Shown here: positions 12,495 to 29,602 of the stretch, piece by piece
Numbering within the stretch: position 1 is the first letter of the stretch
How the letters are laid out: every line of letters starts with the position of its first letter
DNA from: Blautia sp. Marseille-P3201T
GTDB lineage: Bacteria > Bacillota > Clostridia > Lachnospirales > Lachnospiraceae
DNA: 64,000 nucleotides
Direction of reading: 5' to 3'
NCBI RefSeq assembly: GCF_900120295.1
Contig: NZ_LT635466.1
Coordinates: 1-64,000 of the forward strand
The notes under the pieces: generated by a model
Told to the model about the DNA's origin: nothing
Databases searched by the model: none
What the model saw: only the letters and a program-made list of their open reading frames with translations
Made by a program: the position numbers and the translations under genes

Positions 12495-13120
12495 TTACAA
12501 CTTCTTAATATATACTTCTACAACTAAGTCTTTCCATTGCTTTGCTCTGATGAAATTTCCAAAAGACTTCCGATATGCTTTGGCTTCTTCAAATCCTAAG
12601 GTGAATCTGTCCATCAACACATACTGTTCTTCTTGAAATTGCATTTCCATGTCATAATCTTCCTCTTTTAAATACCATTTAAAAACACCTTCTTCTGTTG
12701 GAGTAACTCTTTCTACAATAGCCTCAATCAGTTCTCCACTAATCTGTTTCTCTTCCAAGTTGCAAGCCTTATCAAGATATTCTTGTATCTTTTGTATTTC
12801 TGCAGTCACATCTACAGGCTCTATCTCTTTACCATCACATTGTAGTTTCTGCAAAGAAATCTCAACCTCTTCAATTCGTACTGTAATTAGATTATATTTC
12901 TTCTGATATTGAGTTTCATCTATCAAATCATCCAGTCGCATATCAACAAGATTATTCTTCCTTTTTTGAAGCCTGTCTAACTCCCTTTGCAACTTTTCTA
13001 CTTCATACCTCTCTGAATGTTCCTCCTTATCGACTGTATAATGTTCTTCAATCGTTCCCATCAGTTCTGCAAGAGAATCTTTTTGATTTTTCCATAATCT
13101 GTGAAAAATTGCTTTTGGTT
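12495..13120 (-). pseudogene. large serine recombinase, C-terminal fragment
   Basis: The frame shows the C-terminal coiled-coil and end domain of large serine integrases: ELDRLQKRKNNLVDMRLDDL, IDETQYQKKYN, then GELIEAIVERVTPTEEGVFK. The catalytic N-terminal domain and zinc ribbon are absent. An ATG exists at 13061, but homology-like sequence continues upstream in the same frame (AIFHRLWKNQKDSLAELM) to about 13120, where it meets the Pro/Glu-rich gene. So this is a stump, not a short gene. It marks the end of a former integrative element. Confidence 0.82.
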
Positions 13121-13491
13121 TCTGGTGCTTCTGGTTCTGGAGTTTCTGGCTCTGGCGTCTGAGGCTGCTCCGGGACTTCTGTTTCCGGTTCCTGGGGCTG
13201 TTCCGGCACTTCTGGCTCCGGTTCCTGGGGCTGTTCTGGCACTTCTGGCTCCGGTTCCTGGGGCTGTTCTGGCTCTTCGATTTCCGGGTTTTCCGGCTCT
13301 TGGACTTCCGGCTCTGGCTCTTCGGTTTCCGGTGTCTGAGACTGCTCTTCTTCCTGCGGTTCTTCTGCTTCCGGCGCTTCTGTCTGGATTTCTATGTTAT
13401 TTGTATTTTCTGCCGCCGAAACACTGGTCGGCGCTATCATAGCTGCTGCCAAAAGCACAGCGATTGTTTTGTTTAATTTCTTAATATGCAA
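13048..13491 (-). CDS. secreted Pro/Glu-rich protein, 3' end lost
   Basis: A TTG start at 13491 behind AGAGGAA gives a signal peptide (KLNKTIAVLLAAAMIAPTSV, cleavage near SAA-EN). The mature part is almost entirely Pro/Glu with PEQPQEPEPEV repeats, an extended wall-spanning stalk. The last ~24 residues (KSNFSQIMEKSKRFSCRTDG...) come from recombinase DNA read in another frame, so the original C-terminus, probably with a sortase signal, has been lost. It is the last gene after sortase B and was probably a substrate or scaffold of the surface complex. Confidence 0.75.
   Translation of the reverse strand: MHIKKLNKTIAVLLAAAMIAPTSVSAAENTNNIEIQTEAPEAEEPQEEEQSQTPETEEPEPEVQEPENPEIEEPEQPQEPEPEVPEQPQEPEPEVPEQPQEPETEVPEQPQTPEPETPEPEAPETKSNFSQIMEKSKRFSCRTDGND
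13171..13269. repeat. three tandem 33-bp repeats
   Basis: Three consecutive 33-bp units encode PEQPQEPEPEV-type 11-mers in the Pro/Glu-rich protein. Units two and three differ at one or two bases, so repeat number may vary between strains. Confidence 0.9.
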
Positions 13492-13524
13492 GGTTCCTCT
13501 ACTCCTTTTCCTTCTGTCTGGTTA

Positions 13525-14322
13525 TCATGTATTTCTCTTAACAAGAACTCCGTGTACCAAAAATCTGACACTTCGGTCACTGGTACAAGTTGACAATGTA
13601 ACAATGCAATCCTTTGTTCCCACTTCAACATCCAGCTTTTCTTCTGAGCGTTTTTTTATATCAGTCAGGAATGTTTCATATTCACCTTCACTTTGGAACT
13701 GTATGGTGAAGCTCTTTTCTGCGGTATCTGCCTCATAATAGGAGAAAATATTATACCGCTGCCAGCCCTGTTCTGTCAGCAGCCAGAAACAAGGGTATTT
13801 CTGAACTGTTCCCTTCTTTCGTATATCACTCAAAGAGCCAAACATGGTGCCATTACGCATATTATGCCCGTAAATAAATGTATTCATATCGGAAAAATCA
13901 CTGCTGTTCCAGGCATCCATAAAAATGCTGCCTGTGCTGTTTTTTTCCCCAACATAAGTATGCTTGATATAATATGTGTTGTCCTCGTCCTGCAAAACAG
14001 GATAGCTGATGCCAGCCGGCTCATAGTAAATCCATCCAATAATGTCTGGATTTTTCTCCTGTAATCCCTTTAAATCCACCTGGATTCCCGGTTCTTCTTT
14101 GGTCTCCTGTTGTTTCTCAGTACTGCTGCTTTCACTATCATCTGTGTCCTCTTCTGTAACATACTGGTTCCGCAGCTTGTCATAGGATTCTTTGGCGCTT
14201 TTATACTGATTCTGAACGGAAATCATATGCCACACGCAGAGCACAATCACCAAGATTCCGCCCAGTATAATCAGGTTCAAAATGCGCTGTTTTTTCTTCT
14301 GTTTTTCTTCTGTCTCTACCAT
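13525..14322 (-). CDS. srtB: class B sortase
   Basis: This membrane-anchored transpeptidase attaches surface proteins to the cell wall. The 265-residue product has an N-terminal membrane anchor (NLIILGGILVIVLCVWHMIS), a Ser/Glu linker and the sortase fold: GWIYYEP, SYPVLQ, the catalytic His in FIYGHNM, the catalytic Cys in LSTCTSDRSVRF and the nearby Arg. TLSTC plus the long helix before it indicates class B. It lies in the corrinoid operon, 17 bases after the S component. The large operon protein at 23262-27953 has a VPKTG sorting signal that it may process. Confidence 0.93.
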   Translation of the reverse strand: MVETEEKQKKKQRILNLIILGGILVIVLCVWHMISVQNQYKSAKESYDKLRNQYVTEEDTDDSESSSTEKQQETKEEPGIQVDLKGLQEKNPDIIGWIYYEPAGISYPVLQDEDNTYYIKHTYVGEKNSTGSIFMDAWNSSDFSDMNTFIYGHNMRNGTMFGSLSDIRKKGTVQKYPCFWLLTEQGWQRYNIFSYYEADTAEKSFTIQFQSEGEYETFLTDIKKRSEEKLDVEVGTKDCIVTLSTCTSDRSVRFLVHGVLVKRNT

Positions 14323-14339
14323 ATTTTTCCTCTTTCTTA

Positions 14340-15209
14340 CTATGTTTCTTCAATCAATCCGTATTTCACCTTAATTCTTTCCAGCTTCTCAATCATAGGG
14401 CGGCTTGCCAGCCAGAGAAAAATCACTGTGGCTGTTGCATGTACCAGATCCACTGGCAAGCCCGACATATAAATAGCCAGTAGATTTTTAGGGGTAATGG
14501 CATAAGACATCATAACCAGGGAAGCCGGATTCATGATTCCGCCATAAATGCACAGCACCGCAAGGAAACCATAGATGCAAAGAGAACCTTTTCGTGCCTT
14601 TAACCACCCTTTTTGAAACAAAATTCCCGCCAGAAAGCCAATGATGCCCATCGCAAGCATCTGCCAGGGCGTCCAGGGTCCCTGACCAAACAGCATGTTG
14701 GAAGCCATCATCGAAATAGCACCTACCAGAAATCCTGATTCTGCCCCAAAACTGACGCCGGCAATAATCGTCACAGCGGCAACTGGTTTAAAACTCTGGA
14801 GCATGAAAAATGCTGCACGCCCCGCCACTGCAATTGCCACCAGCACAGCAATCGTGAGAAGTTCTCTGGCTTTTGGTTTTCTCCCTTCAAACACCATAAA
14901 GAAGGGCAGGATGGTGAACACAGCAAGCACCAGACTGATAACCAGATACTTTCTGTCCGCAAAAAAGGTAACCCCGATCCAGATTGTCAGAGGAATGGCA
15001 ATCAAAATCAAGCCTATGGAAACAAGGGTGCGTTTTGGAAGTTTCCCCTTTCCCTTTGGCACTGCAAGCACAGTCTGGTAATCCCAGAAGCCCTCCTTCT
15101 CTGTCTCTTCTGTTTCCTCTTCCCAGAAATCCGTATCTACAGAAACGGAATCACTTTTTCCGTCCAGAAAAGCATCCAGAAAGGCATCCAGCTTTTCTTC
15201 CTGCAGCAT
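14340..15209 (-). CDS. ECF transporter substrate-binding (S) component, probably corrinoid-specific
   Basis: The membrane-embedded S component of an energy-coupling-factor importer binds the vitamin. The 289-residue protein has an unusual acidic cytosolic extension of about 60 residues (DAFLDAFLDGKSDSVSV; EEETEETEKEGFWDYQ), then six or more membrane segments with VSFGAESGFLVGAISMMASN and GQGPWTPWQMLAMGIIGFLA, typical of the CbrT-like group. Its ATG overlaps the stop of the ATPase gene (TGATG). Specificity for cobalamin is inferred from the riboswitch and DUF4430 neighbours, not from residues. Confidence 0.85.
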   Translation of the reverse strand: MLQEEKLDAFLDAFLDGKSDSVSVDTDFWEEETEETEKEGFWDYQTVLAVPKGKGKLPKRTLVSIGLILIAIPLTIWIGVTFFADRKYLVISLVLAVFTILPFFMVFEGRKPKARELLTIAVLVAIAVAGRAAFFMLQSFKPVAAVTIIAGVSFGAESGFLVGAISMMASNMLFGQGPWTPWQMLAMGIIGFLAGILFQKGWLKARKGSLCIYGFLAVLCIYGGIMNPASLVMMSYAITPKNLLAIYMSGLPVDLVHATATVIFLWLASRPMIEKLERIKVKYGLIEET

Positions 15210-16945
15210 CAGCCCTCACCTCTTTTCCAAGAGCCTACTGCTTCTATTACATCTGAAACTGTTACAGCATCAGGAAACCAGGCTCGTGCCATCCGGTTAG
15301 CAGCAGTGGTATAGAAATTATTACCTGCGAAAAAACTCCGGGCATCCTTACAGGAAACAAGATTCCCCTGGAAAAAAAGCCCGATCCGATCTGCATACTG
15401 GGCACAGAATTCCACATCATGGGAAATCAGGAGAATGGTGACGCCATGGCGGGCAAGGGTGCGAAGAATCTCTCCTAATTCCTGCTTATAATGATTGTCA
15501 ATTCCTTTCGTGGGTTCATCCATAAGCAGGATCCTTGGGCGAAGCAGCAATACCTTTGCCAGAGCCAGACGCTGCTGTTCTCCACCGCTTAAATCATAAG
15601 GATGCCGATCCATCAGCTTCTCCAGTTTTGTCAGCGCCGCTATTCCCTGTATAGCATCTGCTTTTTTCATATCAATGGGATATGCCTTGCTGGTTTTTTC
15701 CCGTTTTCCGTCAATCATCTCATATAAGTCCTCACGAACCGTTTTCTTTACAAACAGGCTCTGGGGATTCTGGGGCATAACGCCCAAAAAGCCATGATAC
15801 AGTTCCTCATCGCTATATTTTCCGATTTCCTTTCCTTCCAGGTAGATTTTACCACGATACGGAAAGCGGATTCTGGCAATCAGACTCATGGATGTACTCT
15901 TCCCTGTTCCATTCCCTCCTACCATGGCAAAAATTTCCCCTTTTTTTACATCCATATTCAGTCCCTTTACCACATCCGGAAGATTTTTCTCATACCGGAA
16001 CCAGACATCCTTAAGACGGATTTCCGGCACCTCCTTATCCTTCTCCTGTTTTCCAACAGGTGACAAATCCAGCATGCTGTTTTCACTTCCCTGTCTAATA
16101 AGAGGTGCTTCCATTCCCACCAGTTCCCGCTTCAGCCAGCGTCTTCCCTGGCTGACCGTCAGCGGACAGTCCAAGGTGCTTTCCACTCCTGCATAAATCT
16201 GCATCGGTGTAGGCATAGCCAGAAACATATCATGCTTCATTTCTTTTAGGGCGCGTCCTATTTCTTCTGGATTGCCCCGGGCGATAATCCGTCCCTCATC
16301 CATCATATAAACCTGATCCGCCCATGGAATGACATCCTCAAGCCGGTGTTCTGTTATAATAACCGTAGTGCCAATATCCCGGTTGATTTTACGCACTGTT
16401 TCCAGGAAATCAGAAGCTGCAATGGGATCCAGTTGGGAAGTTGGTTCGTCCAGAATCAGCAGATCCGGATGCATTGCCATAACAGAAGCCAAGTTCAAAA
16501 GCTGCTTCTGCCCCCCGGACAACTCGGTAACACTTTTCAGAAACCACTCCTGTATGCCAAAGTAGGAGGCCATTTCTGCAACTCTAAGACGGATGGTAGG
16601 CGTGTCATAGCCCAGGCTTTCCAGGCCAAATGCCAGTTCATGCCAGACTTTGTCCGTTACAATCTGATTGTCTGGATTTTGCAGAACATAGCCAATGCCC
16701 TGGCTTTGTTCCCGATGTCCTACCTCTTCTAGTTTTTTCCCCATGTAGCAGATTGTCCCACGCATTTCCCCATGCGGAGACAGTTCACTCTTCATCTGCC
16801 GCAGAAGTGTACTTTTGCCACACCCGCTTTTTCCACAGAGTACCACAAAACTGCCTTCCTCCACAGACATCTGTATATTTATAAGAGCCGGTTTCTCCTC
16901 TCCTGGATATTTGAAACTAAAATTCTCCACTTTTATACATTCCAA
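15209..16945 (-). CDS. ECF transporter ATPase, two ABC domains fused
   Basis: The 578-residue protein contains two ABC ATPase halves. Half one has Walker A GKSGCGKST, signature LSGGQ and Walker B LLILDEPTS. Half two has Walker A GGNGTGKST, signature LSGGEQQ and Walker B ILLMDEPTK. ECF modules usually use separate EcfA and EcfA' subunits; here they are one chain. The start is a TTG at 16945 with GGAGG eight bases upstream. It powers import through the adjacent T and S components. Confidence 0.95.
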   Translation of the reverse strand: MECIKVENFSFKYPGEEKPALINIQMSVEEGSFVVLCGKSGCGKSTLLRQMKSELSPHGEMRGTICYMGKKLEEVGHREQSQGIGYVLQNPDNQIVTDKVWHELAFGLESLGYDTPTIRLRVAEMASYFGIQEWFLKSVTELSGGQKQLLNLASVMAMHPDLLILDEPTSQLDPIAASDFLETVRKINRDIGTTVIITEHRLEDVIPWADQVYMMDEGRIIARGNPEEIGRALKEMKHDMFLAMPTPMQIYAGVESTLDCPLTVSQGRRWLKRELVGMEAPLIRQGSENSMLDLSPVGKQEKDKEVPEIRLKDVWFRYEKNLPDVVKGLNMDVKKGEIFAMVGGNGTGKSTSMSLIARIRFPYRGKIYLEGKEIGKYSDEELYHGFLGVMPQNPQSLFVKKTVREDLYEMIDGKREKTSKAYPIDMKKADAIQGIAALTKLEKLMDRHPYDLSGGEQQRLALAKVLLLRPRILLMDEPTKGIDNHYKQELGEILRTLARHGVTILLISHDVEFCAQYADRIGLFFQGNLVSCKDARSFFAGNNFYTTAANRMARAWFPDAVTVSDVIEAVGSWKRGEG

Positions 16946-16957
16946 GCTTTTGTCCTC

Positions 16958-17899
16958 CTATTCTGCCATATACCAGGGCAGCTTCCGCTCCATACTGGCT
17001 TTTGCTTCCAGGCGCCGGAACACCGCATCTTCCCAGACTCCCATGATAAACGGGAAAAAACAAAACAACGCCCAGGCCAGGTAAGTCACTGCACTCTGCC
17101 AGGTAAGGGGCAGTCCCCCGATTTTGATTACCGGATTATACTGAGCAAAGGCAGTCCCAGATGCAAATCCTACTCCACTGATTCCCAGCAGCAGCAACAA
17201 CATAAGAGACGCTTTTAAATCCCGGCTATCGAACCGGAAGATAGAAAATGCGCTTCGCCCCTTCAGACCATATCCTCTGGCCCGCATAGAGTCAGAGGTT
17301 TCAATGGCATTTTCAAGTGCCCAGGTAATCAGTATAGACAGGATGGTAATTCCATACCGAAGTTTCTGGAACAGATTTCCATTACTAAAATCCCGCCCAA
17401 CCGCTTTCTGTCCATTCCGTATTACTTTTAGCTGTGCGCCGAATCTTGGCACAAACCGAAATACCATAGACAGAACCAGGGACAACGCCGGTATCACCCT
17501 TCCAAACAGATATACAAATTTGTCCGTTGTCATCACTTCGTTATAGCAGGAAAACCATAAGATTGCTATAAACAACATGGACGCCAGCACCACACCATAA
17601 ACCAGCGCCTCCAGCGTTACGGGCCCTGACTTCAAATAAAAAAGAAACGTTACCCCGTAATGATTAAAAGCGGGATTCATAAAAGCTACAATGACCATTG
17701 CCGGCAAGGTATACAAAAGATTAAAACGCAGAATCTTCCTCCAGCCTTTCAGGCGGATGGCATAACATGCCGCCCCCAGAAACGAAATACTAAGAAGCAC
17801 CGGATGGCTCATAAACATGGAAATCAGAATCACAGTCAGAAAATAAAAGAATGCTACCGCCGGATGACAGTCTGTAAAAGCATCTGCATGTTTATTCAT
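16958..17899 (-). CDS. ecfT: ECF transporter transmembrane (T) component
   Basis: EcfT couples ATP hydrolysis by the A domains to toppling of the S component. The 313-residue protein has several membrane helices (FFYFLTVILISMFMSHPVLL; LASMLFIAILWFSCYN) and the cytosolic coupling region with the characteristic Ala-Arg-Gly signature in SDSMRARGYGLKGRS. The best start is the ATG at 17899, which overlaps the stop of the lipoprotein gene (ATGAATAA), indicating translational coupling. Confidence 0.93.
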   Translation of the reverse strand: MNKHADAFTDCHPAVAFFYFLTVILISMFMSHPVLLSISFLGAACYAIRLKGWRKILRFNLLYTLPAMVIVAFMNPAFNHYGVTFLFYLKSGPVTLEALVYGVVLASMLFIAILWFSCYNEVMTTDKFVYLFGRVIPALSLVLSMVFRFVPRFGAQLKVIRNGQKAVGRDFSNGNLFQKLRYGITILSILITWALENAIETSDSMRARGYGLKGRSAFSIFRFDSRDLKASLMLLLLLGISGVGFASGTAFAQYNPVIKIGGLPLTWQSAVTYLAWALFCFFPFIMGVWEDAVFRRLEAKASMERKLPWYMAE

Positions 17900-19088
17900 A
17901 AAAAGAATCCCCCACATCCCGTCCAAGGTCACAGGTATAACGCCATTGAATTACATCTCCGTTGCTGACTTCATACTGGGAGCAGCCATAATTTGGATAC
18001 CAGCCGTTGACGTTATACATCCATCCTGAAAGTTTACCGCAGTCAAATTCATACAACTGGTTAATCCCTTCCACATAATAAGAGCCATACATGGGCGTAT
18101 AACTTGCTTCCATCTGGATTCCAGCCTCCCGGCACACCCTGTAAAGCACATCATAGACCGTCTCCCCCGGTGTGTATTCTACGGTAGATGAATACAGAAT
18201 CCACCCGTCTGCCGGCACAAAATCTGCTTTTTCCTGGTTTAACTGTTCCATATTATCCAGGATTGTCATACAGTCTATGGAAATCGTACACGTATGAGTT
18301 TCCGTCTGGGCATTCTCCCCACTGGAGGTTCCTCCGTCTGCTGTTTCCGGAGTCTGTGCAGCATTTTGTGTACCGGAGGTTTCCGTATTTCCTGACTTTT
18401 GCTTTGCTGTCTTTGTATTGCTGTCCCCGGACTGGGTACTTTCACCGGATGAATTTCCACCGACCAGGTAATACGTGTCCCCCATCTCCGTCACTGCAAA
18501 TGTCAGTACGCTTACTTCTGCTCCGTCTCTTTCTTCTGTGTCAATCTGGACGTCCGTCATTTTCTCAGGAGCCCCGTCTACCATTTTGCACAGAATCACA
18601 GAATCCGCATCCCACTTTTCTGCCAGTTCCAGTTTCAAAGTCACAGGAGCCGCCAGCTTCGTCTTTTCCAGGGTCACTCCAAGACCCACAGACGCCTGGT
18701 TGGCAAGCTCTTTTACTTCTTCCACCTGCTCTTTTGGAAATGCTACTTTTAATTTCTGTTCCACAGCATTTTTGATTTTGCTTCCGTCATAACTCCAGGT
18801 ATAACGAATGCCCGTAGAGGCGTCCTCTCCATAAAATTCATATGTTCCTTCTTTCCCTGCAATCGTTTCTAGCTGTGCCTTTGTAACAAGCCCATTATCC
18901 GGGAGAGCATTGTGCTCTGTTAAAGCCTCCACATCCTCTTCCTGCTTTTCTCCTGAATCCCCGGAAACATCTTCCGTCCGGTCTAATCGGGTAATTTGGT
19001 CTGAACTGATTGTTCCGCCACAGCCTGCCAGGCAAAACAGCAGACAGGCAGTCAATACAGCCAGAAAGTTTCTGTTTTGTTTCTTCAT
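17892..19088 (-). CDS. DUF4430 (transcobalamin-like) lipoprotein
   Basis: A lipoprotein signal (NFLAVLTACLLFCLAGC) anchors this ~398-residue protein to the membrane outer face. The middle is an unclassified domain followed by a Ser/Thr/Gly-rich linker. The C-terminal ~120 residues form a DUF4430 domain, the fold of the C-terminal beta domain of transcobalamin and intrinsic factor: ETVYDVLYRVCREAGIQME, YVEGINQLYEFDCGKLSGWM and NGDVIQWRYTCDLG. It probably hands corrinoid to the ECF transporter encoded directly downstream. GGAGG is best spaced for the ATG at 19088. Confidence 0.88.
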   Translation of the reverse strand: MKKQNRNFLAVLTACLLFCLAGCGGTISSDQITRLDRTEDVSGDSGEKQEEDVEALTEHNALPDNGLVTKAQLETIAGKEGTYEFYGEDASTGIRYTWSYDGSKIKNAVEQKLKVAFPKEQVEEVKELANQASVGLGVTLEKTKLAAPVTLKLELAEKWDADSVILCKMVDGAPEKMTDVQIDTEERDGAEVSVLTFAVTEMGDTYYLVGGNSSGESTQSGDSNTKTAKQKSGNTETSGTQNAAQTPETADGGTSSGENAQTETHTCTISIDCMTILDNMEQLNQEKADFVPADGWILYSSTVEYTPGETVYDVLYRVCREAGIQMEASYTPMYGSYYVEGINQLYEFDCGKLSGWMYNVNGWYPNYGCSQYEVSNGDVIQWRYTCDLGRDVGDSFYE

Positions 19089-19148
19089 ATCCATCCTCCA
19101 TAAACCATGCCAGAAGGGACCCGCCGATGGCGGCTCCCTCTTAGCTCT

Positions 19149-22100
19149 TTATGCTCGTTTTCTTTTCAGGACAATGCAGATTACAATAACTACTACTGCA
19201 CCGGCAATGACGCCTATATAAGGCAGAAATTGCGTTACATCTCCTCCTGCCAAAGCTTCTCTTTCTATATTCTGCCCCTTCTTATCTGTATTGCCGGCTT
19301 TTGCCCCTCCTTCTGTATCAGAAGCAGCTTCTGATCTGCCCCGGTAGGTATCGCCGGTAAAGCTCCATCCGCTTTTCTTCTCTGTATCAGATGTTCCGGC
19401 GCCGGATTTGGTTTTTTCGGTTCCTTTAGTTAAGGATACTCTCTTGCCGCTGGATGTAGAGGTTCCTAAGGAAGGGGCGCTTCCGGAATTGCTTCCCTGA
19501 CCCAGGCTGCTTCCATGAGACATTCCTGAGCCACCGGTGCTGCTGCCGCTATTTTCCAGCCCGGTTCCACTTCCATCTCCTTCTCCGCCTGCCTCCGGTG
19601 AAAGATCTGACATATCATACAGAGAGGTTTTTCCATCCAAAAGTCTCTGGTATGCAACCAATGCGTAAAACGCCTGTTCTGTTGCCATGCCATTGACCTT
19701 GCCTCCCTCGCCTCCGCCATTATTGGAGGCTCCTTTTTTTACATGCATAAATCCGGTATTGCCAACCTGATATGACAGCAGATTTTCCACCGTCCATCTG
19801 CCATTTTTGATAAACCTTGTATCCGTACCGGCATCGATTCCCAAAGAACTGAGTGCAGTGATAACCTGTGCATTTGATTCTGAGGTTTCAGCGCCCATGG
19901 TTCCGTAGCCGCCTGTAGAAAGCTGCATATCTGACAGCTTCTCTAATCCACGATTTACAGCCGCTGTTACATTGTCATACCCTTCTTTCTGATAGTAAGG
20001 AGCCAGAGCCTGCAGCGCCATCCCGCTCATATCCGAATCCGCCTGCTCACCTGACAGGGACCAGCCGCCCCCGGGAAGCTCTGCTTTCAGAACAGTTTCC
20101 AACAGGAGCTGTTCTGTTGTCTGTACCGATACTCCCTTTACTGTAGGAATCTCATAGGCCGGGTTGCTGTTCAGGGCAATCAGCGCCCAGATAGGCCCAT
20201 TAATCCCTTGAGAGCTGACTTTCTCAAAGTCCGCCAAATAAGTGAACAGATTATATCCGGCAATATCTCTGGCATCTTTGCCGATTGCAGTCAAAGCCAG
20301 GATTAGTTTGGAATATTCCGTATAACGGGCTCCCAGATTTCCGTCTTTTTCCTTCAGGTAATTTGCAATATGATTATAATAGGTAGTAAAATAGCTGCTG
20401 TCCGGATCCATGCCATAACGGGCAAGACCAATCACAAACCATTCGCTTCCCTTTGTTGGGTTCGTATCCACAGAAAGCATATAGTCAGAAGCTTCCTTTA
20501 ATGCGGTTTTGACCGACTTGGACAGTGGATTTGCCTTGGAAGTCACTTTCACCTTACATTCTGCCTGGATAGAAGAGTCTGATTTTAAGGAAACCCTGAT
20601 TTTTGTAGTTCCCTCACTGACACCTGTCACAGTTCCCTCCTGGTCCACTGTGGCAATTGTTTCATCCATGCTCTTCCACACCATAGCTTTGTCTTCCGTA
20701 TAATTAGCAGGAACTACCTTAGCATTCAGAGTGACTGTCTCACCTTTGCCAACCTTCTGGCTGGAAGCCAGGGAGATGTCAGACGCCGGTATGGTAAGCC
20801 TTGCCAGGAGAAATTCTCCTACATCTGCGGAAGAAAATACCAGTCTTCCTGTCTCTTTCTCATAGGTGTAATCTATCTTATCCACAGAATTGCCATCTAT
20901 ACGGTACAGGACAGCCAGGGATATACTCTCCCAGTCCTCTGGGACCTGGAGATAGAATTTTACCGGCTTTTCCAGTTGATAGGCATCCCCTGTCCTGATA
21001 TCCGTATAGGTAACTTTTCCGTGTATCAGCGTTTTTGCACTTGCAGCCCCCTCTGCGCGGTTAATCTTTTTCAGAATTTCTGCGTCATCCTCCATGGTTT
21101 CATATGCGGTTTTCGCAAACCAGTAATTGTCCACTGTAACCGCTCCTGCGCTATGGATAACCTCCGCAATCCGCGCTTCTGTTTCCCGACGCTTCTCATT
21201 GGTTCCCTCCGGCATACTTTCCTGGATTTCTCCGTCCATATTTCCATACAGACTGTCTGCTTTTAGAAAATCCTGCATTAACTGGGCATCCAGATCCGGC
21301 AGTTTGTCCTGGGGCACTGCCCAGATTGCCTGGCTGACCAAATCTCTGACCCGTAAAACAGCCCTTTCCAGATGTTTCCCTGTTTCTTCCGGCAAAGAGG
21401 CCTGCTGGCTCTCTGTCAACCCATTATATAATTTCTGCACCTGAAGGACCTCTTCCGCTGCATCCAGGGCAAAACCTTCCGGAATCGCCTGCACAGCCTC
21501 CTCTATTTCCTGAACCTCCTGCTGTAGTTCTTCCAGTCTTTTCAGCACACTGTTCAGACGCTGCAGATCCTTCGTCGCAATCCTGCCCTTTTCTGCGGTG
21601 GAAAGGCTGTCATACTGTTCTTTTGCCTGGTTAATCTGTCCGGCGTCGTCCAGTGTGACCTCCGACAGGGCAGGCAGCGCCCGGATGGCTGCTGTCACCT
21701 GCTGCACCTTTTCCTGCTGTCCTAATATCTTCTCTGCCACCGCATAGATATTTACCAGTTTCTTTTTGCTGCTTTCGGAAAGATAGCCTTTCGCTGCCTC
21801 GGACATCCCTTCGTATTCTTTATACACATCCGCTATCTGGGAAGCATTTTCCCAGGTTACACCAGAAGCAGAATCTGGAAGCTCCTGAATCTTTTTCTCT
21901 AATGCCTCGGCTACTTCTTTCGCACTTCCTACGGTTATCCGGCACTGGGCGCTGATCCCCCCGGACGTAACCGCCCGGATTACCGCTTCTCCTTTTGCGT
22001 GGGCAGTCACCATCCCCTGCGTATCTACAGAAGCAACTTTTTGGTTACTGCTCTCCCAGGAAACCTGTAGCTCTTCCGTAGCATTTTCCGGTTTATAGGA

Positions 22101-23213
22101 AGCAACCGACAACTGCAAGGTCTGCTCTGCCTCCATAGACGCAGAGGACCGGCTAAGAGTGATTTCTTCTATCTTCCGGTGCTGCACAGCTACGTGGCAG
22201 GAAGCAGTAAGCCCATTGGAAGTCATCGCAGTAACCGTTGCTTCCCCGGGTCCCACTGCTGTTACCGTCCCTGCCTCTGATACCTGGGCAACAGACGGAG
22301 TGCTGGTGGACCACTGGAGTGTCTTGTCATCTGCATCTTCCGGCTGTATGTCTGCGGACAGACTGGCTGTGTTCCCAACATACAACTCCAGCTCTGTCTG
22401 GTCCAGGGAAATAGATTCCGGATATACAGGAGCCCGCTCAGGCAAAGCTGCATAAATCTCATTCACACTTTCCTGGGAAGCATCCACAGTCTGGAGAATT
22501 TCCAGAGCCCGGTTATAGTTCTCCTTACAGCCCTCAATAGAGAACCAGGCCTCCTTATTCTGATTAATCTGTGCAATTTTCGCTGTCAGGAGGCTCTTAT
22601 CTGCTACCTGGTATGTCGCATCACTCCCCTCTAAGTCCAGCCCATATCCAAACACCGTAAACTGAACCCGGAAAACATCCCCGTTCTGCGGCACCTTACC
22701 ATCCATTCCCACATCCGGGAACTCATTGTTTACAGAATACATCCATCCGGACATGCTGTTATAGGAATATTCCTGCAAATCCGGTGCATAATCATTGACT
22801 GCACTATTGTTAGGAGGGTATACCTTCTGACCGTTCCAGTCCCGCTGTGGCGGCATATTCCGGATGCAGAGAGGGATGTTTAAATTCCCGGTATCTGCAT
22901 CTTTGATTCCTGACAGGTAAAAACTCCATCCCACGTTCCCTGTATAGGTATAACGGATTCCAAGGCTGTCCATAACCCTGGTAAGAAGTTTCGAATAGTC
23001 ATCCCCTTCCTGAATCTCCACCAGCATGGGCTCTGCCAGGTACCCCTGCCCTAGGGTAAAACGCTCTATTGTCAACGTCACTGTGCCAAGTCCTGATGCT
23101 GCCTTTGCAGGTACAAATCCGGTAAAAATTCCCGTCAGCAGCAAAAGTACAGCTAACAGCAGTGCAGGCAGCCTTCTGCCCATCTTCATTCTTCTATTCA
23201 TACCTTTCACCAC
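19149..23213 (-). CDS. giant surface protein: DUF4430, Ig-like (Big_2) domains and alpha/alpha barrel
   Basis: The 1354-residue protein has a signal peptide (LPALLLAVLLLLTGIFTGFV), an N-terminal DUF4430 domain (residues ~40-190; SGWMYSVNNEFPDVG), Big_2 Ig-like domains at about 265-345, 348-430 and 838-920, helical spacer repeats between them, and at about 930-1225 a terpenoid-cyclase-like alpha/alpha barrel (NGPIWALIALNS; GGWSLSGEQADSDMSGMALQ; NGMATEQAFYALVAYQ). A Ser/Gly-rich stalk and a membrane anchor (IAGAVVVIVICIVLKRKRA) follow. The barrel plus DUF4430 pair is the architecture of intrinsic factor, in reversed order. Start could also be the ATG at 23201. Confidence 0.88.
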   Translation of the reverse strand: MVKGMNRRMKMGRRLPALLLAVLLLLTGIFTGFVPAKAASGLGTVTLTIERFTLGQGYLAEPMLVEIQEGDDYSKLLTRVMDSLGIRYTYTGNVGWSFYLSGIKDADTGNLNIPLCIRNMPPQRDWNGQKVYPPNNSAVNDYAPDLQEYSYNSMSGWMYSVNNEFPDVGMDGKVPQNGDVFRVQFTVFGYGLDLEGSDATYQVADKSLLTAKIAQINQNKEAWFSIEGCKENYNRALEILQTVDASQESVNEIYAALPERAPVYPESISLDQTELELYVGNTASLSADIQPEDADDKTLQWSTSTPSVAQVSEAGTVTAVGPGEATVTAMTSNGLTASCHVAVQHRKIEEITLSRSSASMEAEQTLQLSVASYKPENATEELQVSWESSNQKVASVDTQGMVTAHAKGEAVIRAVTSGGISAQCRITVGSAKEVAEALEKKIQELPDSASGVTWENASQIADVYKEYEGMSEAAKGYLSESSKKKLVNIYAVAEKILGQQEKVQQVTAAIRALPALSEVTLDDAGQINQAKEQYDSLSTAEKGRIATKDLQRLNSVLKRLEELQQEVQEIEEAVQAIPEGFALDAAEEVLQVQKLYNGLTESQQASLPEETGKHLERAVLRVRDLVSQAIWAVPQDKLPDLDAQLMQDFLKADSLYGNMDGEIQESMPEGTNEKRRETEARIAEVIHSAGAVTVDNYWFAKTAYETMEDDAEILKKINRAEGAASAKTLIHGKVTYTDIRTGDAYQLEKPVKFYLQVPEDWESISLAVLYRIDGNSVDKIDYTYEKETGRLVFSSADVGEFLLARLTIPASDISLASSQKVGKGETVTLNAKVVPANYTEDKAMVWKSMDETIATVDQEGTVTGVSEGTTKIRVSLKSDSSIQAECKVKVTSKANPLSKSVKTALKEASDYMLSVDTNPTKGSEWFVIGLARYGMDPDSSYFTTYYNHIANYLKEKDGNLGARYTEYSKLILALTAIGKDARDIAGYNLFTYLADFEKVSSQGINGPIWALIALNSNPAYEIPTVKGVSVQTTEQLLLETVLKAELPGGGWSLSGEQADSDMSGMALQALAPYYQKEGYDNVTAAVNRGLEKLSDMQLSTGGYGTMGAETSESNAQVITALSSLGIDAGTDTRFIKNGRWTVENLLSYQVGNTGFMHVKKGASNNGGGEGGKVNGMATEQAFYALVAYQRLLDGKTSLYDMSDLSPEAGGEGDGSGTGLENSGSSTGGSGMSHGSSLGQGSNSGSAPSLGTSTSSGKRVSLTKGTEKTKSGAGTSDTEKKSGWSFTGDTYRGRSEAASDTEGGAKAGNTDKKGQNIEREALAGGDVTQFLPYIGVIAGAVVVIVICIVLKRKRA

Positions 23214-23261
23214 TAAAACAGACCTAGCCAGAGCTGCTTACGCAGCCCTGGCATACATCTG

Positions 23262-26200
23262 TTACCTGCTCCTTTCCTTTCTTCTGGCTATAATGGCTGC
23301 CAGCGTAATAACTGCTGCTACCGTAAGCAATGCCATACATGCCCCAAGGCTGTCCGCAAGGAAGTCTCCTGTCTTAGGTACTCCAGCAGAGCCGCCTGCT
23401 GTTGTTCCACCTGTATTCTTGGAGCCTGTTGGCGTATTGCCCTTATTGCCGCTGCCTGTGTTAGTCCCGCCTGCGTTATTACCGCCTGCGTTATTTCCAC
23501 CTGCGTTATTGCCACCTGTGTTGTTTCCGCCTGTATTGTTTCCGTCTCCTTTACCATCATCCGGGGCTGCTTTCTCTTTCAATCCCAGCGCATATACGGT
23601 AAGGCTATCTGCTTTAAAGGTCACCTGGCCTTCCCCTGCTGTTACAGTAATATAAGCAACATCGCCATTTTCCTGATACTGACCCACCATGATTTCCTTT
23701 CCTGACAGATTGCTGTCTGTCTTTAAGGTAATGGTAAATCCGCCCTGTGGCGTCCATGCCTGTTGTGCATAGGCCTGCTTCTCTTCATCCCATACCACCT
23801 GGTATGCAGAAATGCGGATTGATTCTGCAATCTCTGCCTTTTTCTTTGACTGTAAAGCGTCTTTTAAGGCTTCATATTCTTTTCCAGATTTCTCCAGACT
23901 GATTTCAACTGTCACATCATAAGGAAGCTTTTCTGCAATGGATGCAAATTCATGCTTCTGAAGCAATTCTGCTTTTGCTCCCTGTATGCGTTCCGGCAAT
24001 GCTGCCAGAGCTGTTTTCAGGTCTGCTGACACCAGATTCTTTGCAGTGACAGAAGCGTCAGCCAGAGCTTTTTCTGCTGTCTTTACTGCTTCTACCGTAC
24101 CGTCCGCAGTCAGACTTTCTTCTGCCCGGTTCAGCGCCTCCTGAATCACCTTCTCTACAGCCACTGCTTCTTCTTTCGCCTTATCATAGTTTGCAATCAG
24201 AAGTTCTACGGTATCTACCTCAGCCATACGGAGCACATAATTCTGTGCATCACTGTTCAGGTTCTCATAAGCAGTCCTGATAGCGCTGACTGCTGCCTGG
24301 GCTGCTTCCCTCTCTTCGTCTGAGGTAATAGAAGAAGGAAGTGCTCCAATCATCTGATCCACTGCCTGGGCGTTTGCCAGGTCTGTATGAACCCTTAAAA
24401 TTTCTGCTTCTATCTGCTGTCTCTTCTCTGCAAATCCTTCCAGGCTGTTCAGATAACTCTGTGCCGCCTCATTGCTTTCATACTGTTCTATCAGCGCCTG
24501 TGCTTTCTCCAGATTTGCTTTCGCTACATTGATATCCGCATTAGTCAGTGGCAGCTCCAGAGCCATGACCTTCTGTACAAATACAGACAGAACTGCTTCT
24601 ATATAGCCGCTGTAAGTCTCTGCTGTCTGCACGTCCAGATAATAGTTATTCATAGCCTCTTCTCCGGCTATTTCCCCTACTTTTGCCTTCTGCTCATTTG
24701 TCAGAGCTTCATAGGTAGTCTGCGCTTCCAAAATACTATTTAACTGCTCTTCTGTCATAACAATGTCAGAACCATCCTCTGCTGTTCCCGTAATCGTATC
24801 ATTAGGCGGAAGCGCCAGGATTTTATCTGCTGCGTCCTTGGCAACCAGTTCTGTGTACATAGCTTCTGCCCGGAACAAAATATCACTGTTTGTCACACGA
24901 TTGCCAAGACCTGCCGCATCCACCTGGTCATACAGCGCCCTTACACTGGCAAGGAACTCTCCATCTTCCAAGGACACATGGATCTCTCCATTCTCATCCA
25001 CCAACTTGTTGATATTGTCAATCACATTCTGGACGGCTGCGTTGTCCTTCAATTCCTGAACCGCCGCTACTGCCTGCTCCAGCTTTTCCTTATATCCTTC
25101 TTTTAAAAGCTCCTGCTTCGCTTCTCCAAGGGCATCGTATGCCTGCTTCGCTTCTATGACTGCCGCTTCATCTTCCAGACTATCGACGGTTCCAATGGCG
25201 TCAATCAGCGCCTCGACCTTTTCCGCATCCTTCAAATCCTCAATTCTCTGTACAATAGCGTCAATCTGGTCTGCATTCTCCAGGGCGTCATACATGTCCT
25301 GTCGCAGCGCTTTAATCTGCTGTTGGAGCGCTTTTGCCTCTTCCTCCTGCGCAGTAGTCAGATTTTCCAGCGGCAGAAGTCCATTGAGTTTTTCCTGGAT
25401 TTGGGCAACCGTTGCTTTATCTGCTGCCAACGCCTTACTTGCGGCTTCCAGGACAGACGCATTTTCTACTTGTTTCTTCTGTTCCTCTGACAGTGCGTCA
25501 AATGCAGCCTGTGCCGCCTGAATCGCCGCTTCTTTCTCCAGAGTTACCTCACCAATGGCAGCAATCAAAGCCTCTGTATCTGCTACCGGTTTCAAAGGAG
25601 CATAAGCTGTTTCCGCCTTGGTCAGTGTTTCCGGGTAGCGTACCGGCATGGATTTTTGTTCTGCTTCGTTCAGCGCATCATAAGCAGTTCTGGCGGTTTC
25701 AATGGCTTTACCGCTTTCCTTATTTACTGTTCCGATAGCATCAATCGCTTTTATCGTTGCTGCTACCGCTTCTGTACCGGTCCATGGCTGTGTGGTATGA
25801 AGATCAAATACAAAGGTCTTCTCTCCCTTATTCTCCAAAAATGCCTTATACGCTGACAGGGCACGAAATGCCTGCTCTGTAGCCATACCATTTTTTCCCT
25901 GACCCTGGATATGTTCAAAGGTTCCATCCTCCAGCATGAAATAATCAATCAGTACGTCCACCAGTCCCAGACCAGAATCTGAGGTAAAGGCCTCCGCTTT
26001 ATTCGGATCCCTTCCCAGAGAGCAAAGAGCTACAATCCACTGGGATATGGTTTCTGAACTGTAATATCCATATCCGGAATAAGGCACCAGACCGGTGGCT
26101 TTATTCTGAACACTGGAAAGATAGCCTAATGCTTTATCCACTGATGCAGTAATCTCTTTATTTTCCCCATACCAGGTAGAAAATGCCTGAATGGACATGG

Positions 26201-27953
26201 CTGTTCCATCTGTGCCGCCGGTATGACTGTCAATATATTCTCCTGTGTCCTTCTGATTCTTGCTCAGTTCCAGGGCTCTTTCCAGCACCAGGTCCTCTCC
26301 CAGATAACTGCGGAAGTTGTCGTCCGCTAAAGCCCACAGACTTGAAAAATTATTCAGGAAATCTTCCTGTACCAGGTTTACCGTTTTGTCACCTACTGGA
26401 AACATGGAAAGCTCATCCAGGGTATAGCCTACGCTCAAAAGTCCCATAACAGCCTTTTCCTGGAAATATCCACCATGATTGTCCCATTTAGAAATCAGTT
26501 CCTGTAATCCTTTGCTGTTCAGATAGCTTTCTTTGGTAATTCCCAATGCTTCCAGATTCTCACCATAGGTCTTCAGTTCCATAATCGTCCAGACAGCATC
26601 TACACTGTTTAAGGTTGAGCCGCTGGAGACTAACCCACGATAAAATTCTGCTGTTTTTTCTGCCCGCTTCAGCAGTTCCTCCTGCGAATGCTTCTGCAAA
26701 ACCTGAATCGTATAAACACCATCCTGATAAAGATCAGAATCTGCATCCGCAGTAGTATAAATCTTAAGCAGCGGCTGACCGCCATCTGTAATAGGTACCG
26801 TTATTTTCCCATTTTTAGGAACATCCTGTTTCTCTCCCTTATCAATCTGATATTGAATAGAAGTGCTATTTTCCGATCCTGATACCCGCACAACGATTTC
26901 TTCTGTCTTTTGATCTACCGCAACCGAATAGTCATAGGTCTCTGGTGCAAAATTTTCAAAAGGCTTGTAAGTGCCTGTAACAGTTATATTTTCCAGCGGC
27001 GCATTACCTTTGATACGTGTAATTGTAAAGGAATACGTACTTGAAGCTTGGTCAAATTCACATCCCTTCTTGGGAACAGTTTCCAGTTGCACACGTTTGC
27101 TTGTCCCTACCTTTTCTAACCCCGGAATGGTTATCCGTCCTTCTGAATCCGGATAGATTGGCTCTCCACCGTCAATCTTACATTCTACGCTTCCTCCCAG
27201 ATGGTAATCTACTGCTGTAGTCATGGTGATATCTTTCCCATTTTTAACATTTGGGTAATACCAGAAAGTATTTTTGTCAAACTGAACTTCCCCTCCATTT
27301 GTATCGGTTGCATTACTAATTTTTACTGAATCCAGAAGCAGTTTTTCTCTTACAGTCTGTGTAACGCCTCCGAAAAACCAGGATTTATCCCCCTTTGCCA
27401 GCTTCTCTGCATCTCTTCCGTATGGCCACCTTACCGTTTTATCCTCCGACTCAGCCGTTTCAACATGAAACTCTGTACCATCTGCTTTATAATACTTACC
27501 GTCCTTTTCTTTTAAAACAATATATACAAAGGGATATCCTTCATATTCACCAGAATAATGTTCTTCTGGTAAAACAAAGACAAACTCCTTGCTCTCTCCT
27601 CCTTGAATCAGCCCAGCCTCATCAAGTCTCTTCGGATTATTCATATTTGTAATCTCATCCTCCTTAAACTTACGGTAATATACCGCATAGCCTTCTTTCG
27701 GAGATATGCTTAACGTTACCGGACCCCCTTTTTTTTCAACTATAGTATCATAAGTACCACTGTAGCCTACATATCCATCTTCTTTCACTTCACATTCCGG
27801 TGATTCAATCTTGAGAACAGAGGACCATTTCATATTCTCATCTATGTCATCTCCGGCCTTAACATTCGTCACGTCCCAAAACAGGATTCCTGTCATCATA
27901 AAAAAACAGAGCAACAATGCCCTTGGGAACACTACCTTTATTCTCATATTCAT
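23262..27953 (-). CDS. giant cell-wall protein with intrinsic-factor-like barrel and VPKTG sorting signal
   Basis: The 1563-residue protein has a signal peptide (ALLLCFFMMTGILFWDVTNV), beta-rich N-terminal domains including a cadherin-like segment (ENITVTGTYKPFENFAPETY), and at about residues 440-740 an alpha/alpha barrel (LNSVDAVWTIMELKTYG; GTDGTAMSIQAFSTWYG; NGMATEQAFRALSAYKAF). About 650 residues of three-helix spacer repeats follow (AYDALNEAEQKSMP and related), then a Gly/Asn repeat, VPKTGD, a hydrophobic helix and RRKERSR, a standard cell-wall sorting signal. The barrel resembles that of cobalamin carriers. It lies between the 28137 and 19149 genes of the same operon. Confidence 0.9.
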   Translation of the reverse strand: MNMRIKVVFPRALLLCFFMMTGILFWDVTNVKAGDDIDENMKWSSVLKIESPECEVKEDGYVGYSGTYDTIVEKKGGPVTLSISPKEGYAVYYRKFKEDEITNMNNPKRLDEAGLIQGGESKEFVFVLPEEHYSGEYEGYPFVYIVLKEKDGKYYKADGTEFHVETAESEDKTVRWPYGRDAEKLAKGDKSWFFGGVTQTVREKLLLDSVKISNATDTNGGEVQFDKNTFWYYPNVKNGKDITMTTAVDYHLGGSVECKIDGGEPIYPDSEGRITIPGLEKVGTSKRVQLETVPKKGCEFDQASSTYSFTITRIKGNAPLENITVTGTYKPFENFAPETYDYSVAVDQKTEEIVVRVSGSENSTSIQYQIDKGEKQDVPKNGKITVPITDGGQPLLKIYTTADADSDLYQDGVYTIQVLQKHSQEELLKRAEKTAEFYRGLVSSGSTLNSVDAVWTIMELKTYGENLEALGITKESYLNSKGLQELISKWDNHGGYFQEKAVMGLLSVGYTLDELSMFPVGDKTVNLVQEDFLNNFSSLWALADDNFRSYLGEDLVLERALELSKNQKDTGEYIDSHTGGTDGTAMSIQAFSTWYGENKEITASVDKALGYLSSVQNKATGLVPYSGYGYYSSETISQWIVALCSLGRDPNKAEAFTSDSGLGLVDVLIDYFMLEDGTFEHIQGQGKNGMATEQAFRALSAYKAFLENKGEKTFVFDLHTTQPWTGTEAVAATIKAIDAIGTVNKESGKAIETARTAYDALNEAEQKSMPVRYPETLTKAETAYAPLKPVADTEALIAAIGEVTLEKEAAIQAAQAAFDALSEEQKKQVENASVLEAASKALAADKATVAQIQEKLNGLLPLENLTTAQEEEAKALQQQIKALRQDMYDALENADQIDAIVQRIEDLKDAEKVEALIDAIGTVDSLEDEAAVIEAKQAYDALGEAKQELLKEGYKEKLEQAVAAVQELKDNAAVQNVIDNINKLVDENGEIHVSLEDGEFLASVRALYDQVDAAGLGNRVTNSDILFRAEAMYTELVAKDAADKILALPPNDTITGTAEDGSDIVMTEEQLNSILEAQTTYEALTNEQKAKVGEIAGEEAMNNYYLDVQTAETYSGYIEAVLSVFVQKVMALELPLTNADINVAKANLEKAQALIEQYESNEAAQSYLNSLEGFAEKRQQIEAEILRVHTDLANAQAVDQMIGALPSSITSDEEREAAQAAVSAIRTAYENLNSDAQNYVLRMAEVDTVELLIANYDKAKEEAVAVEKVIQEALNRAEESLTADGTVEAVKTAEKALADASVTAKNLVSADLKTALAALPERIQGAKAELLQKHEFASIAEKLPYDVTVEISLEKSGKEYEALKDALQSKKKAEIAESIRISAYQVVWDEEKQAYAQQAWTPQGGFTITLKTDSNLSGKEIMVGQYQENGDVAYITVTAGEGQVTFKADSLTVYALGLKEKAAPDDGKGDGNNTGGNNTGGNNAGGNNAGGNNAGGTNTGSGNKGNTPTGSKNTGGTTAGGSAGVPKTGDFLADSLGACMALLTVAAVITLAAIIARRKERSR
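23470..23544. repeat. five 15-bp repeats (NN[T/A]GG)
   Basis: Five consecutive 15-bp units encode the pentapeptide Asn-Asn-Thr/Ala-Gly-Gly in the wall-proximal stalk of the giant protein. Such runs vary in number between strains. Confidence 0.88.
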
Positions 27954-28136
27954 CTTCCTTTTCTCTTTTTACTTTATAAAATTCTCACACATTTCCTCTC
28001 TCCATTGCCAGGGAACCGCAGAACCTGTATAAAATTTCTTTTTCTCCTGAAAAGGGAGAATTCCCTTTTAACAATTATTCAAAACGTGGAATAATTGCTT
28101 AAGAGAATTCTCCACAGGCAAACCGATTTTTAAATC

Positions 28137-28868: not shown

Positions 28869-28960
28869 AATACGAACTCCTTTCTCCGCATCTCTGTGCG
28901 TATTTTGATTTATTACAACAAAACACTCTGTTTTGCTATAAACGCTTCCGATATCCATAT

Positions 28961-28994
28961 AAAAAGCACCGTACTTCCTATTGGAAATCGGTGC
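28961..28994 (-). terminator. riboswitch expression-platform terminator
   Basis: GCACCG (28989-28994 on the plus strand reads cggtgc) pairs with CGGTGC (28966-28971) around an inner stem, followed on the minus strand by TTTTT. It lies between the cobalamin aptamer and the first gene of the operon, the position of an attenuator. Confidence 0.85.
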
Positions 28995-29040
28995 AAACGT
29001 ATTTATGCACTGCCCTCATCCGGGAATGCCGGATTGGATC

Positions 29041-29246
29041 ACTGAAATAGAGTATCCTGGCTAACGCTTCGGATTGAAACATCCATCGTCCGTTTCCTAC
29101 CTTCCCATGATTTCTCACAGTGGATGACTTTCGTCCACACAGATTGCTCTGTGCTTTGGAACGGCATAACGCTTACAGTACCGTTTCTGTGCGGGGTCTC
29201 TCACCCCATTCCTCCTTCCGCAATGGTGCATTGCGGCCATTTCAGT
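29041..29246 (-). ncRNA. cobalamin riboswitch (classic long form)
   Basis: On the minus strand the RNA shows the cobalamin aptamer signature in order: GGAATGGGGTGAGAGACCCC with GCACAG and CGGTACTGTAAG, then CCACTGTGAG, GGGAAGG and AAGCGTTAGCCAGGATAC. ACTGAAAT and ATTTCAGT pair perfectly as the closing P1 stem at 29246 and 29041. A terminator follows at 28961-28994. It should reduce expression of the downstream DUF4430/ECF operon when corrinoid is plentiful. Confidence 0.9.
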
Positions 29247-29300
29247 TTTTGATTCAATTTTTATAACGCCTGTTTTCCAGAAGCTCCTGGATTTTTTCAC

Positions 29301-29337
29301 AAAAAAAGAAACCTCTCCGTATCTGTAGAGAGATTTC
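29301..29337 (-). terminator. terminator between the two leader RNAs
   Basis: Arms gaaacctctc (29308-29317) and gagagatttc (29328-29337), one mismatch, followed by seven T on the minus strand. It sits after the compact structured RNA and before the classic cobalamin riboswitch, so the leader has two successive attenuators. Confidence 0.85.
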
Positions 29338-29353
29338 TATCTTCACAGCAACC

Positions 29354-29498
29354 TACTATGCACTGCCCTCTACGGATTGACGGATTTCACACCGTATTCC
29401 ATGAGACAGTAGGTCTGCCGGGCTTTACCGGACGTCAGGATGTACTCCTGCCTGGCTCCGGGATTTCACCGGATTTCCTCTTAGTGCTGCACATAGTA
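29354..29498 (-). ncRNA. compact structured leader RNA, possibly a corrinoid aptamer variant
   Basis: The 5' strand TACTATG...CACT and 3' strand AGTGCATAGTA close the element. Inside are AATCCGGTGAAATCCCGG, a hairpin AGGAGTACATCCT, then AAAGCCCGGCAGACC and a second GGTGTGAAATCC hairpin. The GGTGAAA/TCC loop and the GCC-GG-ACC block recall the cobalamin-family core, but the long middle arms are missing. It could be a compact corrinoid class or something else. A terminator follows directly. Confidence 0.5.
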
Positions 29499-29573
29499 CG
29501 CAACTATTTCATGTTCTATTATTTAGATTTTCTAAAAAAACTTTATTTTTTCTTTTTCTCTGAATTTATCTTT

Positions 29574-29602
29574 AGAATAATACAAAATATCTGAATTGTC
29601 AA
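29574..29602 (-). promoter_or_regulatory. promoter of the corrinoid operon
   Basis: TTGACA (29597-29602) and TATTCT (29574-29579) are separated by 17 bases on the minus strand, about 75 bases upstream of the first leader RNA. The -35 overlaps the stop codon of the upstream small membrane protein gene. Confidence 0.7.

Follow-up and report, generated by a model that had tools for sequence, protein, structure and literature searches.

On the minus strand of the first 64 kb of contig NZ_LT635466.1 of Blautia sp. Marseille-P3201T (hereafter, the window; the host genome is 2.94 Mb), positions 29602 to 13048 appear to hold an operon that, taken whole, probably serves the cobalamin-controlled capture and import of corrinoids. 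According to the list of open reading frames (ORFs), nine ORFs with intergenic gaps of no more than about 200 bases follow one another in the 5' to 3' order secreted DUF4430 protein (D1, gene at 28137), wall protein with an alpha/alpha toroid (B2, 23262), protein with both DUF4430 and a toroid (D3, 19149), DUF4430 lipoprotein (D4, 17892), EcfT, fused ATPase, S component, sortase B, and a Pro/Glu-rich ORF (Table 1). An earlier note on this DNA had described the genes, order, and coordinates of this leftward run, all of which the ORF list confirms, and had read from it four proteins with DUF4430, a toroid, or both, a complete energy-coupling factor (ECF) transporter, and a sortase B. Domain calls with Pfam and NCBIfam models at their cut-offs, together with profile comparison and structural modeling, bear these readings out: PF14478 matches three of the four proteins, a toroid was modeled in B2, D3 combines both domains, and the transporter comprises a T component that matches the EcfT profile, two ABC domains in one chain, and an S component that matches CbrT.

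That the operon takes up corrinoids, as the earlier note proposed, is very likely, and the proposal is strongly supported because of the CbrT-type S component and the linkage to riboswitches inside and outside the family. Compared with PDB sequences as a single query, the S component matched 6fnp_A at E 5.9e-7, the next match, 8v0h_A, being at E 0.26; a seven-sequence profile retrieved 6fnp_A at E 2.1e-16 as its sole match up to E 0.1. 6FNP is the S component of ECF-CbrT, for which, in the part of the report available, binding and transport of cobalamin and cobinamide are shown, the complex having also been expressed in an E. coli strain without its B12 importer (PMC5997447). The T protein alone had no match among the Pfam models, that for CbiQ included. 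It could be thought that the substrate is another tetrapyrrole, such as haem or sirohaem, or another vitamin, given that S components with a common fold serve a wide range of vitamins and that this one is labeled riboflavin-like by one curated model (PF07155, scoring over its threshold) and folate-like by another (TIGR04518, at 34 bits where the cut-off is 60). In Staphylococcus lugdunensis, moreover, an ECF transporter that scavenges haem has been reported (PMC7299338). Such a substrate is nevertheless very improbable, with CbrT as the only PDB match of the S profile and the DUF4430 genes linked to cobalamin riboswitches.

At the operon head, two RF00174 aptamers stand in tandem, each followed by a hairpin and a T run, and both hairpins fold about 4 standard deviations better than shuffles; the cobalamin riboswitch of the earlier note is, then, indeed upstream of the operon, but as a pair rather than singly. 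As read from the sequence, the layout of aptamer, hairpin, and T run has the anatomy of transcription termination upon cobalamin binding. The direction of control would be that generally seen in the class, cobalamin riboswitches being described as OFF switches (PMC11477304, in the portion available). Across the window, RF00174 exceeds its gathering cut-off at three sites, the third of which heads the upstream unit.

The association of DUF4430 with cobalamin riboswitches extends far beyond this operon. In the host genome, all five DUF4430 matches, two of them on other contigs, lie downstream of RF00174 on the same strand, at distances of up to about 11 kb. Among 97 DUF4430 matches in 55 genomes of the family, 52 are preceded by a riboswitch on the same strand at a distance of at most 10 kb, compared with 4 that have one within 10 kb downstream and 1 with one on the opposite strand. 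Because the family set had been chosen mainly for the S component, the count was repeated on Clostridia drawn evenly from the class, where DUF4430 occurs in 55 of 118 genomes (the host included), a frequency suggesting that a widespread capture system may be at work. After removal of two genomes of the window's family (G000 and G332), 128 matches from 53 genomes outside the family were left, and the corresponding numbers are 75 upstream, 9 downstream, and 2 on the opposite strand. By chance, only about 0.4 and 0.7 upstream riboswitches would be expected in the family and class sets, respectively, assuming genome sizes of 2.8 Mb and 2.4 Mb. Infernal filters were stricter in both of these scans, at the cost of weak riboswitches (6 rather than 7 in the host genome). 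Two further riboswitch-linked DUF4430/toroid loci, in the same genome (L043:9543-13638 and L044:8688-14087, both on the minus strand), encode proteins with choline-binding repeats in one case and FIVAR in the other, which may attach them to the surface.

The earlier note had called for a search for the same gene set in other Lachnospiraceae. The S component was found in 47 of 200 family genomes, the host included, and DUF4430 accompanies it in 47 of 47, versus 1 of 8 genomes without S that were hand-picked, and hence non-random, from 20 such genomes listed, all at least 96% complete. The two are also close in the genome: 44 of 48 S matches (out of 53 rows, the other five being second pieces of the same frame) have a DUF4430 within 10 kb. 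When the DUF4430 alignment of the lipoprotein was compared with bacterial and archaeal species genomes, at least 594 relatives were confirmed; our locus counts refer to the best 80 of these, whose hosts include Blautia, Enterococcus pingfangensis, Acetobacterium paludosum, Eubacterium callanderi, Ruminococcus bromii, and Flavonifractor plautii. The lipoprotein gene was recovered in 74 of the 80 loci, and flank length set the further denominators. Of the 68 loci with sufficient flanking sequence, 62 have the T gene directly 3' of the lipoprotein gene; 48 of 51 contain A and S, and in 30 of 51, among them many of L048-L061 and L085-L141, S is fused to the tandem ATPase in a single A-A-S chain. 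The conserved core, as judged from these gene neighborhoods, is lipoprotein-T-A-S.

The four extracellular proteins carry different predicted anchors, namely, VPKTG, a helix, and RKERSR in B2, a C-terminal helix followed by KRKRA in D3, an LAGC lipobox in D4, and none in D1. These motifs agree with the earlier assignment of one wall-linked, one membrane-bound, one free protein, and one lipoprotein, and the diversity of anchors is what suggests transfer from the outside inward. At low cellular cobalamin, the terminators would not form and the parts of the operon would be made. The toroid and DUF4430 domains would then bind corrinoids outside the cell, with the two domain types, by analogy with transcobalamin, sandwiching the ligand; sortase B could fix the wall protein B2; the proteins at the wall and in the membrane would hand the corrinoid on to the DUF4430 lipoprotein, whose gene neighbors those of the transporter, and the lipoprotein would deliver it to the S component, with T and the fused ATPase providing the drive. 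The overall logic would be that of Isd, a haem relay that likewise has a dedicated sortase B, with transcobalamin-like domains in place of NEAT. That the DUF4430 and toroid proteins capture corrinoids outside the cell is likely, and an ordered relay from the wall to the S component is plausible, with the chances about even.

The relay competes with an alternative whereby the ECF transporter imports corrinoids unaided, as ECF-CbrT does, and the surface proteins are a store of B12 or a means of denying it to competitors. ECF-CbrT was reconstituted and assayed as S-T-A-A, and the available part of that report mentions no separate extracellular binding protein (PMC5997447); hoarding is thinkable in a host that has most of the cobalamin pathway; and L043 and L044 hold DUF4430/toroid proteins with no T or S relative in the stretches covered, although L043 has two other ABC-type proteins about 5 kb further on. 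This alternative seems to us the less probable one, considering the presence of DUF4430 in every one of the S carriers and the position of the lipoprotein gene directly before T in the great majority of loci, which fits a delivery partner. Within the relay reading, it is conceivable, if doubtful, that the transcobalamin is split: the wall-linked toroid, the membrane-anchored DUF4430 and toroid, the free DUF4430, and the DUF4430 of the lipoprotein would form the sandwich of toroid and DUF4430 between different proteins, and the ligand would move inward as these domains change partners. If so, the operon would represent an Isd-like relay for B12, equipped with a dedicated sortase, and an extant relative of the system that gave rise to animal intrinsic factor and transcobalamin.

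Structural modeling places the DUF4430 domain of a relative close to that of the animal carriers. Residues 30-595 of a DUF4430+toroid relative from L102 were modeled with a mean pLDDT of 81.5 and a pTM of 0.61, and Foldseek against the PDB aligned the model with the transcobalamin beta domain (5no0) at E 2.2e-3, with a TM-score of 0.70 by target length and an rmsd of 4.8; farnesyltransferase, transcobalamin, and terpene cyclases appear intermixed at E <1e-3, and haptocorrin at 1.6e-3. In the window itself, the model of residues 421-730 of B2 is an alpha/alpha toroid (pLDDT 84.2, pTM 0.86), and residues ~901-1205 of D3 align with the toroids of relatives. The DUF4430+toroid homologues in L085, L089, L102, L112, L114, L116, L123, L124, and L130 are compact and have two short Asp/Asn-rich C-terminal repeats that, by eye, look like dockerin and might dock to a cohesin scaffold.

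Apart from the curated labels of the S component, several lines of evidence weigh against the operon being a corrinoid capture and import system with carrier-like proteins. The nearest folds to the B2 toroid are terpene cyclases and sugar hydrolases, with haptocorrin only at rank 36 (E 0.015); the toroids match squalene-hopene cyclase by sequence; and profiles of DUF4430, of the toroid, and of both combined retrieved no transcobalamin or intrinsic-factor chain among PDB sequences at E up to 1. The toroids of cobalamin carriers are equaled or outscored by cyclases and prenyltransferases, and, as far as the models go, the toroids of the operon and its relatives are generic alpha/alpha toroids that are not specifically intrinsic-factor-like. 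The earlier idea of a bacterial counterpart of intrinsic factor survives where the DUF4430 fold and its combination with a toroid in a single protein are concerned but not for the toroid alone, and superposition on the carriers holds for the DUF4430 of a relative rather than of a window protein, and for the toroid in the generic sense only. Moreover, no more than 28 of 51 loci have a recognizable toroid gene immediately 5' of the one for the lipoprotein; a toroid may be dispensable at that position, or some toroids may have diverged too far for BLAST.

The riboswitch evidence has exceptions, too. Among the eight loci of the 80 that come from named species and were scanned with Rfam, four cobalamin riboswitches were found in total, and only two loci, L080 and L125, have one on the same strand upstream, in both cases of the toroid-coding part. 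The riboswitch of L063 lies behind the operon, the head of which is cut off there, that of L079 is on the other strand, and L065, L070, L097, and L142 yielded none in the available stretch; some of these eight stretches may not reach the operon head. A same-strand riboswitch within 15 kb upstream was not found for 40 of the 97 family and 50 of the 128 class DUF4430 matches, and 15 of the 97 have no riboswitch and no S component nearby. In this remainder, weak aptamers may have been missed, contigs may end too early, or the DUF4430 proteins may serve other purposes. Finally, in the open-licence literature, we recognized no experimental test, by binding or growth, of a bacterial DUF4430/transcobalamin-like system, and the need for import may be doubtful in a host with most of the anaerobic cobalamin pathway.

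Indeed, NCBIfam models identified in the host genome CbiD, CbiL, CbiF, CbiH, a CbiJ/E/T fusion, CbiA, CobT, and CbiB, with CbiG just below the cut-off; by eye, CobU, CobS, CobC, CobD, and CbiP are probably encoded as well. A riboswitch also heads a set of genes for CbiM, CbiN, CbiQ, and an ATPase-CbiK fusion, and at least one B12-dependent enzyme, methylaspartate mutase, is encoded. Judging from this gene content, the host is probably able to make cobalamin, and import would spare the cost of synthesis or bring in other corrinoids; with most of the pathway present, a growth test of the wild type on limiting B12 would be confounded. Across the family, CbiD occurs in 11 of 47 S carriers (36 lack it) versus 7 of the 8 hand-picked non-carriers (Fisher p 0.001). 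These counts agree with a remark of Burroughs et al. 2007 (PMC1796856, available in part) that bacteria with operons of this kind usually, as a tendency, lack key enzymes of B12 synthesis; the host is an exception.

The wall protein and the sortase invite a different interpretation, namely, that they form an adhesion apparatus and have no more than the operon in common with the rest. In its favor, B2 (23262-27953) has no DUF4430 by PF14478, and its toroid matches cyclases and glycoside hydrolases ahead of haptocorrin. Against this, L063, L064, L065, L066, and L073 likewise have a toroid or VPxTG protein in the corresponding place; in all of these but L064, a VPxTG-ended protein was found at the position matching B2. 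Sortase B, furthermore, was seen only alongside a sorting-signal protein: it occurs in 3 of the 80 loci, in each case with a gene for a VPxTG protein 5' of it, and thus in 3 of 9 loci with a sorting-signal protein versus 0 of 71 others (Fisher p 0.001, with the loci related and many cut by contig ends). On balance, adhesion appears rather unlikely, and sortase B, present in so few loci, is best regarded as a local addition outside the core.

Table 1. Features of the operon and of the adjacent riboswitch-headed unit (positions in the window)
Feature	Position	Strand	Evidence and remarks
Promoter-like site TTGACA-17-TATTCT	29574..29602	-	Consensus match only; 40 such sites in region versus a shuffle mean of 28.1
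Cobalamin riboswitch aptamer 1 (tandem pair)	29391..29523	-	RF00174 34.9 bits, cut-off 31.5; not listed in first window scan
Putative intrinsic terminator (hairpin and T run) 3' of aptamer 1	29307..29338	-	Pattern scan and fold: -18.0 kcal/mol, z -4.2
Cobalamin riboswitch aptamer 2 (tandem pair)	29032..29256	-	RF00174 41.9 bits
Putative terminator (hairpin and T run) 3' of aptamer 2	28966..28994	-	Fold: -17.7 kcal/mol, z -4.0; not among pattern-scan sites
D1, secreted, single DUF4430, no anchor, 243 aa	28137..28868	-	PF14478 30.2 bits; likely start is ATG at 28868 behind GGAG (ORF ran to 28958)
B2, wall-linked, 1563 aa; signal peptide, cadherin-like domain, toroid ~425-720, helical repeats, VPKTG sorting signal	23262..27953	-	
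D3, membrane-anchored, 1354 aa; N-terminal DUF4430, Big_2 (Ig-like) domains, alpha/alpha toroid ~901-1205, C-terminal helix	19149..23213	-	PF14478 30.9 bits
D4, lipoprotein, C-terminal DUF4430	17892..19094	-	PF14478 67.5 bits, the strongest DUF4430 match
ECF T component	16958..17932	-	Family profile versus EcfT 5d3m_D, E 2.6e-13
ECF ATPase, two ABC domains in one chain	15209..16945	-	PF00005 in two stretches; TIGR04520 344.6 bits, cut-off 315
ECF S component, CbrT-like	14340..15209	-	6fnp_A match
Class B sortase	13525..14322	-	TIGR03064 186.4 bits, cut-off 153.75
Short secreted Pro/Glu-rich ORF at end of run, membership uncertain	13048..13491	-	No Pfam family
HNH_repeat protein, possible further regulon member	30781..31767	-	PF18780 104.4 bits
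Third cobalamin riboswitch, heading upstream unit	32261..32463	-	RF00174 90.7 bits; then hairpin and T run 32209-32175, z -3.0

The unit upstream of the operon adds a possible new member of the B12 regulon, the HNH_repeat protein. It was found in 2 of 48 family genomes, both times as the first sizeable ORF 3' of a cobalamin riboswitch; none was found in 36 genomes represented among the 80 lipoprotein-relative loci, in a search that had no positive control and probably shared some genomes with the 48. In genome G021, the relative (L148:10618-11652, minus strand) is the first gene after the riboswitch, with T, A, S, and a DUF4430 gene directly behind it. Between the two riboswitch units of the window lies a gene for a BspA-type leucine-rich repeat (LRR) protein with no evident signal peptide (29938-30777, minus strand), a relative of which (266 bits) is found at L068:70-990 (plus strand), upstream of the same operon there. 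The idea that the HNH_repeat and LRR genes are mere chance neighbors of the operon is thereby weakened. A further riboswitch, suspected by eye near 31850-32000, was dropped, as it gave no match at E up to 1. Farther upstream, an IS66-like transposase was recognized by eye at 33672-35261, next to an iron-dependent repressor gene (33188-33637) and a small ORF that, by eye, is FeoB-associated-like (32876-33046). At the other end of the operon, the ORF at 12495-13061 (minus strand), which by eye resembles the C-terminal part of a serine recombinase and had no Pfam match over cut-off, overlaps the end of the ORF at 13048-13491; a mobile element may have altered the 3' end of the operon here.

Like animal intrinsic factor, transcobalamin, and haptocorrin, the operon seems to combine a beta-grasp DUF4430-type domain with an alpha/alpha toroid in extracellular B12 proteins, but whereas the animal carriers are single compact two-domain proteins with the toroid at the N-terminus, the parts are here divided among four proteins, and in D3 the DUF4430 is N-terminal to the toroid. 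The Isd system of haem uptake employs a sortase B, a wall protein, a lipoprotein, and a membrane importer, all of which have counterparts here, for a tetrapyrrole-like ligand in both cases; the differences are a classical importer there and an ECF transporter here, iron control there and cobalamin riboswitches here, and no NEAT domains among the Pfam rows for the extracellular operon proteins. BtuG and BtuH of Bacteroides are outer-membrane lipoproteins that work in partnership with BtuB, and in this respect they differ from the present system. The likeness lies in surface proteins that capture B12 for an importer (PMC6143338, PMC8941943, both in part). Other B12 importers, of the BtuCDF type, are named in two accounts whose available portions do not mention the present system (PMC7478625, PMC11477304). 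ECF-CbrT of Lactobacillus delbrueckii (6FNP, PMC5997447) shares with the operon the T component, two ATPase domains, and a CbrT-like S component; there, the ECF module is shared among S components, and the part of the account available mentions no extracellular binding protein, whereas here, T, the fused ATPase, and S are encoded in one operon with four extracellular proteins.

The closest precedent is the set of transcobalamin-like SLBB and alpha/alpha-toroid operons of Burroughs et al. 2007 (PMC1796856), which, in the part of that work available, were predicted in Gram-positive bacteria to scavenge B12 and were proposed as the origin of animal transcobalamin. The operon described here is a member of the kind thus predicted, and the idea is not new. 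The likeness extends to DUF4430-type domains of the transcobalamin clade in secreted proteins (PF14478 in three here), to the fusion of this domain with a toroid (19149-23213 here, a homologue of which was modeled from L102), to signal peptides, wall anchors, and a second paralogue, and to a CbiO-like ATPase with a CbiQ-like membrane protein (here, T was recognized via the EcfT profile). The differences are that the same part of the 2007 account mentions no riboswitch, in-operon sortase, or CbrT-type S component, and that the tendency of the hosts to lack B12 synthesis enzymes does not apply here. To the 2007 prediction, the present analysis adds the quantitative link to riboswitches, the CbrT-type S component, and the conserved lipoprotein-T-A-S core, as well as a head of two aptamer-terminator units in tandem, a sortase B encoded within the operon together with its VPxTG partner, and a host with most of the synthesis pathway.

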